33,358 bases of DNA from contig JABDMC010000032.1 of assembly GCA_013001695.1 (NCBI GenBank), forward strand, positions 1-33,358. The letters run 5' to 3'. The stretch comes from Akkermansiaceae bacterium. GTDB taxonomy: Bacteria; Verrucomicrobiota; Verrucomicrobiia; Verrucomicrobiales; Akkermansiaceae. Position numbers and translations under genes: made by a program. The notes below the pieces were generated by a model. The model did no database searches and was not told the DNA's origin. It saw nothing but the letters and a program-made list of their open reading frames with translations. Positions 30,124-32,202 of this stretch are shown one piece after another (within the stretch, counting starts at the first letter, position 1; every line of letters begins with the position of its first letter).

Positions 30124-31599
30124 TTACTGCGCGTCCGCCTTGAGCTGGGTCGTGAGGGCGTCGAGCTCGGCCAGCTTCGAGGCGTAGCGCGGGTCATCGG
30201 CGAGATTGGTGCGCTGGTAGGGGTCGACCGTCACGTCGTAGAGCTGCTTCACGTTCCCGTTGTTCGGGTAGCGCGTGTAGCTGAACGCTTCGGTCCGCAC
30301 CCCTTCGTTCTTGAAGACGGTGGGGATCGCGGGGTGGTCGTGGAGGAAGACGGCGCGCCAGTCGGCGGGGGGATTGCCCTCGATGATGGGGCGCAGGGAT
30401 CGCCCCTGCATGACGGCGGGCCGGGGGACCCCGGCGTAGTCGAGGATGGTGGCGGGAATGTCGAGGTTGAGCACCATCTGGGAGACCCGCTTGCCCCTCA
30501 GGGTGGCGGGGAGCCGCGGGTCGCAGATCACGAGGGGGACCCGGATCGACTCATCATGGATGTACCACTTCCCGACCTGGTGGCGCTCGCCGTGGGTGTA
30601 GCCGTGATCCGACCCGAGGATGACAATGGTGTTGTCCGTCAGGCTGTCACTGTTGTCGCCGTCGCCGTCCGGGTCGTCGAGGGCGGCGAGGGCGCGCCCG
30701 ATCTGGACATCGACGCCGTGGACCAGGCGGTAGTACTTCTTGACGCTCGCCTGGTGCTTCGGGTCCGTGTTGAAGTTGTTGTTCCATTCAGCGGTGCCTG
30801 CCGAGCTGGTCGACCTGATGAACGACGGCAGGTCGTCGAACTGGGCCTGCGTGTCGGTCTTGGCGTGGGCGATGGTGTCGGCGGAATACAGGCTGTCGTA
30901 GGCCGGATCGGGCTGCAGGGGGTTGTGGGGGGACTTGAAGCTGATCTGCAGGCAGAACGGCGCCGCGCCCGGATTCTTGGCGGGGTCGACCGCCTCGCCG
31001 AGGAACTCGATGGCGAGGTCGCCCATGAACTTCGTCAGGTGGCGGCCACCGGCGGACTCGCCGTCGATGACCTGGCCGAAGTACGAGCCCTGGACGTCGT
31101 AGCCCTTGTCGAAATCGAACGTGCCGAAGGTGCCGGTGAAGCCGTTGCCGTGGCCGTGCTTGCCGATGAATCCCATGTAATAGCCGTCGGCCTTCAGTTG
31201 GGCCGGGTAGGATTCGGCCCACTGGGCGGCGGTGTACGTTCCCCGCTGGACCGTGATGACTCCGTGCCGTGCCATGTGCTGGCCCATGAAGACCGAGGCG
31301 CGGCTCGGCCCGCAGATCGCAACGGTCGTGAAGGCGTTCTCGAAATTGGTTCCCCGGGTTGCAAGGGAGTCCATGTGAGGCGTGGTGATGACCGAATTGC
31401 CGGTATATCCGACCGCATCCCATTTCATGTCATCGAGGAAGAAGAACAGGATGTTGGGCGGGCCCTGCGCGCAGGCCACCGGGACGAGGGCCGGCAGGAC
31501 CGCCCCGGCAAACAAGAGGGCGAGGCCCGCCCGCCGGAGCGGCCGGAACACCGGGAGGGTCGGTTGACGGGAAGGGCCCTTGTTCGGTTCGGGATGCAT
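30124..31599 (-). CDS. secreted type I sulfatase
   Basis: This 491-residue exported sulfatase has an N-terminus with RRAGLALLFAGAVLPALVPV, a signal peptide ending near ACA-Q. NILFFFLDDMKWDAVGY gives the metal-binding Asp pair. AICGPSRASVFMGQ holds the Cys96 to be converted to formylglycine in C-x-P-S-R. GKHGHGNGF, FKSPHNPLQP and LGSDHGYTHGERHQVGKW complete the active site, and QLYDVTVDPYQRTNLADDPR is the usual C-terminal block. It is full-length and probably active on a sulfated polysaccharide or small sulfate ester, the substrate being unknown. It differs clearly from the sulfatase at 10570-12057. The RCC1 gene follows after a single base. Confidence 0.93.
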   Translation of the reverse strand: MHPEPNKGPSRQPTLPVFRPLRRAGLALLFAGAVLPALVPVACAQGPPNILFFFLDDMKWDAVGYTGNSVITTPHMDSLATRGTNFENAFTTVAICGPSRASVFMGQHMARHGVITVQRGTYTAAQWAESYPAQLKADGYYMGFIGKHGHGNGFTGTFGTFDFDKGYDVQGSYFGQVIDGESAGGRHLTKFMGDLAIEFLGEAVDPAKNPGAAPFCLQISFKSPHNPLQPDPAYDSLYSADTIAHAKTDTQAQFDDLPSFIRSTSSAGTAEWNNNFNTDPKHQASVKKYYRLVHGVDVQIGRALAALDDPDGDGDNSDSLTDNTIVILGSDHGYTHGERHQVGKWYIHDESIRVPLVICDPRLPATLRGKRVSQMVLNLDIPATILDYAGVPRPAVMQGRSLRPIIEGNPPADWRAVFLHDHPAIPTVFKNEGVRTEAFSYTRYPNNGNVKQLYDVTVDPYQRTNLADDPRYASKLAELDALTTQLKADAQ

Positions 31600-31661: not shown

Positions 31662-31796
31662 CTACCGCAAGACAACGGTTTTCGCGTGAAGCTGATTCAA
31701 TTCCCGCACCCGCTCCGGAAAAGCCCCGGCGAGGTCCCTCGGCTCGTTCCGGTCGCGGCGCGGATCATCCAGCTCCGGGCGGGACGTCCTCTCAAC
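31662..31796 (-). pseudogene. C-terminal fragment of a third sulfatase
   Basis: The minus strand reads RPELDDPRRDRNEPRDLAGA, then FPERVRELNQLHAK, and a stop. This matches the final block of sulfatases (E-L-Y-D-L-x-x-D-P-x-E-x-x-D-L-A-x-x-x-P-E-R-V-x-E-L) well. The rest of the gene is missing and the sequence just upstream is the 3' end of the HMA-like gene, in another frame. This looks like a truncated sulfatase gene left in front of the intact one. Confidence 0.6.
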
Positions 31797-32202
31797 GACC
31801 CGCTTCCAGGGGCGCTCGCGCGACCTTGACCTTGAAGGCCGTCTTCTTGTGGAGAATCGCAATCACATCTTCGGCCGCGGCGGTGCCGGTGTATTGAATG
31901 AGCTGTCCCTTGATCTTCACCGCGGGGTGATCCCCGATCTGCCCCGGAACCCTGAGACCGGAGACACCCTCGACGTTTTTGAGTGCGGACCGCACTACTT
32001 CGAACCGGCCGTTCAGTCAGCACATCCCGTCCACACGGAGATACACCGTTCTGGTCCTGGTTCGCAGGTCCTCGGTGGAGGGGTTGAGAATGAGCGAACC
32101 GGCGGCAGGCCCGGCATCGCTCCGGCCTTCTCCCGAGACGCTGCAATAGATCGCGCCCGTCAGGAGCAGGGCGGCGGCGACAGCGATTGACTTCCTGGTC
32201 AT
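31792..32202 (-). CDS. candidate selenoprotein: exported HMA-domain protein with in-frame TGA
   Basis: The frame is one continuous 136-codon gene if the TGA at 32017-32019 is read through. ATG 32202 begins MTRKSIAVAAALLLTGAIYC, a signal peptide possibly with a lipobox-like Cys. Residues 51-61 are RTVYLRVDGMC, the first strand and metal loop of a heavy-metal-associated domain. Then the TGA (codon 62) is followed in the same frame by LNGRFEVVRSALKNVEGVSG, then AVKIKGQLIQYTGTAAAEDV and IAILHKKTAFKVKVARAP, which fit the helix, strands and second helix of that fold. The product would be Cys61-Sec62, with no second Cys in the loop. A hairpin follows the TGA (see 31982-31996). The alternative is a nonsense mutation in a decaying gene. 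No selenocysteine machinery is in the window. Confidence 0.55.
31982..31996 (-). promoter_or_regulatory. SECIS-like hairpin downstream of the in-frame TGA
   Basis: On the coding strand AGUGCG-GUC-CGCACU forms a perfect 6-bp stem with a GUC (or, with one pair fewer, GGUCC) apex. The apex lies about 27 bases after the TGA, and its first bases include the G-U seen in the E. coli fdhF selenocysteine element. Stem, loop and distance fit my recollection of the bacterial SECIS pattern, but hairpins of this size are common in GC-rich DNA. Confidence 0.4.

Follow-up and report, generated by a model that had tools for sequence, protein, structure and literature searches.

Does a small gene that is interrupted by one in-frame TGA encode a selenoprotein and, if it does, what would its selenocysteine (Sec) be used for? 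This question was raised by a locus in a 33,358-nucleotide stretch of DNA from an Akkermansiaceae bacterium (assembly GCA_013001695.1, contig JABDMC010000032.1, positions 1 to 33,358), the whole of which is referred to here as the window. A preliminary description of this DNA had proposed a functional Sec codon within an exported HMA-type domain. As model carriers of copper and mercury, HMA domains rely on two cysteines, and a natural HMA domain with one Sec, and with Arg for the other ligand, tests what this fold can do. Our analyses, which start from sequence comparison, indicate that the product of the gene is very probably a small exported selenoprotein of the HMA fold, UGA codon 62 being read as Sec.

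A single frame and the machinery to read it

Reading of the minus strand gave one frame consisting of codons 1-61 (32020-32202), the TGA, codons 63-136 and then a second TGA at 31792 (Table 1). With 130 genes of this genome as the training set, codon scores were best in this frame on both sides of the internal TGA, with values of 0.16 before and 0.34 after it. Among real gene segments these values rank at the 10th and 17th percentiles, respectively, and among stop-free wrong-frame segments at the 91st and 97th. The frame reading and the codon scores together confirmed the single frame with one internal TGA, and with its next stop at 31792, that had been described previously. The protein is presumably exported, judging by its N-terminal peptide; the ortholog presented below (L201) and the paralogues likewise start with signal or lipoprotein peptides.

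Table 1. Coordinates of the candidate selenoprotein gene and its features within the window.
Feature	Position	Strand	Details	Basis or comparison
Candidate selenoprotein gene	31792..32202	minus	136 residues including Sec62; terminal TGA 31792-31794	Frame reading, ortholog L201
ATG start codon	32200-32202	minus		Frame reading
TGA codon 62, read as Sec	32017..32019	minus		Aligns with first Cys of HMA CxxC motif
Cys61	32020..32022	minus	Adjoins Sec	Gly in ortholog L201; usually Thr or Val in relatives
Arg66	32005..32007	minus	Column of second motif Cys	Arg in L201 too; Cys in nearly all other relatives
Predicted N-terminal signal peptide	32125..32202	minus	MTRKSIAVAAALLLTGAIYCSVSGEG; about residues 1-26	Sequence reading
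Predicted HMA-fold domain	31819..32052	minus	Residues 51-128	AlphaFold2, structure matches, weak NF041115 match
Putative SECIS hairpin	31982..31996	minus	AGUGCG-GUC-CGCACU; loop 26 nt after TGA	Identical in paralogue L119

The preliminary description had made its reading depend on the presence of sel genes, and the machinery by which a bacterial selenoprotein is recognised (SelA, SelB and tRNA-Sec) is encoded in this genome. The selA and selB matches exceeded their cut-offs by 482 and 286 bits, respectively, and a tRNA-Sec with the anticodon TCA (UCA) scored 69.8 bits. The same genome carries a formate dehydrogenase alpha subunit gene with one in-frame TGA, and selA was detected in 14 out of 15 genomes of the genus. 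Moreover, 74 out of 130 sampled genes terminate in TGA, indicating that it has not been reassigned throughout the genome. A reassignment of TGA to a standard amino acid, for which nothing was found in support, is hardly conceivable in view of these stops and of the Sec pathway.

An ortholog and relatives with Sec or Cys at codon 62

BLAST of the window protein against 58 relatives and 388 genomes of the phylum returned the protein itself and chance matches, but no homologue. The best of these chance matches was antisense to an excinuclease-like gene. Exact peptide scans of the genome_contigs, viral_contigs and plasmids sets produced chance matches alone, and so did the pattern GMC[C/U] in the order and in genome_contigs; the pattern is blind to L201 because L201 has GMGU. 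Degenerate-query alignments with invented variants (A1 and A2) found nothing and are the basis of no conclusion. An in-frame stop is the starting point of every reading of this kind and, together with the first BLAST searches, it would fit a TGA that is a real stop, in a pseudogene or through a sequencing error. We consider this highly improbable, since a TGA at the same codon, followed by conserved sequence, was found in L201, which belongs to a separate genome and family, and since the hairpin that follows the TGA is conserved in six relatives.

L201 was the one direct ortholog found and comes from another family of the same order. Its sequence reads RTVYLSVDGMGUVGGRFEAVRSAL... and is 63% identical to the window protein over 83 residues. 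Downstream of the TGA, 41 out of 67 residues were identical, with a pN of 0.26, a pS of 0.68 and a dN/dS of about 0.17, while third codon positions differed between the two genes far more often than first and second ones (p = 2e-6). As in other bacterial selenoproteins, the in-frame UGA thus lies within coding sequence that is conserved on both sides, and the expectation that homologues would keep codon 62 and the sequence beyond it held for L201. As L201 comes from an independent genome, both a sequencing error and a recent pseudogene are very unlikely explanations. In a tree based on 78 columns, the window protein and L201 grouped together (support 100/99) within a six-member clade that also contained GMTUxxGC paralogues (100/100).

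When the genus was searched with the HMA family, many of the HMA domains that came up were interrupted by exactly one TGA. Eight relatives and the window genome encode small exported proteins whose motif is TGVTUxGC or TGITUxGC, and the window genome also encodes L119, a lipoprotein-like protein with a GMTUGVGC motif (contig C291). Two further HMA selenoproteins of the window genome, L118 (G000:C229) and L176, lie on contig C229. A profile of HMA selenoproteins matched 239 out of 387 genomes of the order, and 99 domains from the fetched loci were aligned. At the Sec62 column, 71 of these domains had TGA and 28 had Cys, a distribution that has to be read with the search in mind, which sought HMA-like motifs and was biased to relatives with Sec or Cys at that column. 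This exchange of Sec and Cys at one column, typical of bacterial selenoproteins, answered the earlier question about codon 62: the aligned relatives carried TGA or Cys codons there and nothing else. None of the 28 Cys-form domains was a direct ortholog of the window protein, and one of them, L120, has its Sec at the second motif Cys instead. L120 (L120:2527-3246, G006:C125), from a relative within the genus, joins a MerT-type transporter to an HMA domain whose motif reads GMTCEGU. At L168 (G053:C79) and L161 (G529:C333), the contig carries two HMA selenoprotein domains side by side, each with its own TGA.

The TGA forms also followed the Sec machinery across genomes. Among the matches listed, selA was present in 16 out of 17 genomes with a TGA-containing form, the exception being a genome that was 70% complete, and in 1 out of 10 genomes with Cys forms only. 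The association gave a Fisher p of 2e-5 among genomes with both results, a value that is optimistic because the genomes are related and the best-scoring matches were listed.

The alignment also changed the view of the residues around Sec62. The second-Cys column was occupied by Cys in all 99 domains except L120 (Sec), the window protein and L201 (both Arg), which confirmed the earlier remark that the loop has no second Cys. The Cys-Sec pair suggested by the preliminary description, on the other hand, did not hold: L201 has Gly in place of Cys61, and the Cys beside Sec therefore does not belong to a conserved pair. As judged from the aligned sequences, the conserved feature is a lone Sec plus Arg, found in the window protein and L201 alone among the 99 domains.

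A last alternative was that the short product ending at Cys61 is functional, with the downstream frame forming a small ORF of its own. A GTG start is present at 31995, as this would need. We regard this alternative as very unlikely, given that the predicted HMA domain extends across the TGA and that the sequence directly flanking the TGA shows conservation in a single frame when compared with Cys-carrying relatives.

The hairpin downstream of the TGA

A perfect hairpin about 27 bases after the TGA had been noted before and taken as a signal for Sec insertion. The hairpin, AGUGCG-GUC-CGCACU at 31982-31996, is real; the TGA is separated from its stem by about 20-21 nt and from its loop by 26 nt, the second being the distance that the earlier figure fits. 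Published bSECIS limits (PMC13188914) are a loop of 3-9 nt, a stem of 4-16 bp, a G at loop position 1 or 2 and a spacing of 16-37 nt, and the window hairpin falls within them. Under the same limits, 24% of the TGAs sampled in the genome precede a hairpin at least as long, and the 63-nt fold after the TGA was no more stable than shuffles. Since equally long hairpins follow about a quarter of TGAs, the hairpin alone is insufficient for a Sec claim.

Conservation analyses of the hairpin supported its earlier interpretation. A stretch of 15 nt (AGTGCGGTCCGCACT), located 20 nt after the TGA, is identical in the window gene and in L119, whose protein is only 36% identical to that of the window. In the hairpin region, all five residues shared by the two proteins used the same codons (chance about 0.009), GCA among them, which accounts for 3.4% of the Ala codons of the genome. 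L201 and three further relatives kept the GUC loop and the stem, the loop-adjacent pair being G-C, G-U or A-U. The covariation score of the six-sequence alignment was reached by 110 out of 500 shuffles and is not significant because six sequences offer too little variation.

The TGVTUxGC subgroup has a separate, different hairpin, which was assessed by pair counts instead of RNAalifold, whose consensus energy for the whole set was almost nil. All five pairs were formed in 51 out of 59 Sec genes, at least four pairs in 59 out of 59, and GU was found in the loop in 58 out of 59. Among the genes with Cys at the Sec62 column, all five pairs were formed in 0 out of 28 and GU was in the loop in 1 out of 28. 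The choice of stem followed the Sec consensus, which partly builds in the Sec counts; what is informative is the contrast with the Cys genes. These small exported HMA selenoproteins (L116-L118, L121-L126 and L133-L204) are distributed across the order and amount to 59 distinct Sec genes. With their Cys counterparts lacking the hairpin, they look like a sizeable selenoprotein group that ordinary annotation would truncate at the TGA.

Taken together, L201, the hairpin, the Sec/Cys exchange and the sel genes support the functional Sec codon proposed previously. In this mechanism, SelB and tRNA-Sec would decode UGA codon 62 as Sec, guided by the hairpin about 20 nt downstream.

The predicted HMA fold, its possible function and known systems

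AlphaFold2 with a 42-row alignment predicted a beta-alpha-beta-beta-alpha-beta arrangement for residues 51-128, the fold that defines PF00403. Most core blocks had pLDDT values of 77-95, with a weak loop around residues 86-100. HMA domains of copper chaperones and ATPases led the structure matches of this model, with MerP among them (Z about 8-9), and the Foldseek E-values were modest (1.3e-3). A structure prediction from the single sequence was poor, with a mean pLDDT of 44.7, and the matches that it gave were set aside. At the level of profiles, Pfam HMA (PF00403) did not match the window protein, and the paralogues L119 and L195 exceeded its gathering cut-off. In place of the GMxCxxC metal motif, the window protein has GMCULNGR. 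Its best NCBIfam match was NF041115, at 22.9 bits against a cut-off of 95 (E 7e-5), which places it outside this family; it also has one Sec only and no UxxU. The curated MerP family, with 18.7 bits against a cut-off of 92.55, does not include it either. The AlphaFold model, the structure matches and the weak NF041115 match nevertheless support the HMA-like domain of the preliminary description.

What this domain would do is suggested by its fold and by its loop. Sec62 would occupy the site of the first Cys of the HMA CxxC motif, with Arg replacing the second Cys, and its single selenolate may capture or pass on a soft metal or organometal outside the cytoplasm, such as Hg(II), Cu(I) or methylmercury. 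The nearby Arg perhaps keeps the Sec62 selenolate deprotonated. We favour this soft-metal capture or transfer over redox catalysis as the most likely function, although with a confidence that stays slightly below even. Alternatively, the protein could be a selenoprotein in which Sec62 is a redox catalyst, acting as a peroxidase or reductase with a small thiol or a partner protein; the loss of the second Cys would have ended the metal-chaperone chemistry and Arg66 would lower the selenol pKa. A lone Sec plus Arg without a second Cys makes no two-ligand metal site, and bacterial selenoproteins are mostly considered to be redox proteins (PMC9312934), both of which speak for this alternative. However, the fold is that of metal-binding HMA domains, the closest paralogues retain UxxGC and no reductase partner was recognised beside the gene, so that we hold redox catalysis to be a serious but rather improbable explanation.

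The gene neighbourhoods gave no hint at soft-metal transfer or at any other function: no operon partner was seen, metal genes were not conspicuous around the window gene, around L201 or around the paralogues examined, and the TPR gene that neighbours the window gene was not detected elsewhere in the genus. Downstream of the selenoprotein gene, positions 30124-31599 of the minus strand encode an N-sulphoglucosamine sulphohydrolase-type sulfatase (Pfam), with no evident link to it.

Several known systems resemble the window protein in part. The UxxU metal-binding (seleno)protein NF041115, listed as a putative mercuric reductase in PMC13188914, also has an HMA-like domain with Sec in the metal loop, but it carries two Sec, whereas the window protein has one Sec and Arg at the second position. 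MerP, the MerTP fusion and the MerT-CopZ selenoprotein NF045683 share an exported or membrane-linked HMA domain, and Sec forms of them are known. In the MerT-type L120, however, Sec replaces the second Cys and not the first, and the window has neither a MerT domain nor recognised mer neighbours. CCS domain 1, Atx1, CopZ and PF00403 have the same fold (Z about 8-9), but copper chaperones use CxxC and the window protein has no conserved Cys in the loop. The TGVTUxGC and GMTUxxGC proteins share with it the fold family, the Sec column, a SECIS hairpin and the Sec/Cys exchange; they retain the second Cys, whereas the window protein and L201 have Arg.

The metal-related selenoproteins named in a 2026 review (PMC13188914) include MerT, a P-type ATPase and the UxxU metal-binding protein, and among the entries consulted there we found no small exported HMA protein whose motif is UxGC or UxxGC, or that has a lone Sec together with Arg. 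Compared with that list, and within the open literature, the wider HMA selenoprotein group is likely to be new. Within this large unlisted group, the window protein might be an HMA fold turned to lone-selenolate chemistry, with Sec62 and Arg66 forming a new exported selenoenzyme or a one-ligand soft-metal trap, a proposal that we make tentatively and with the same entries as reference.
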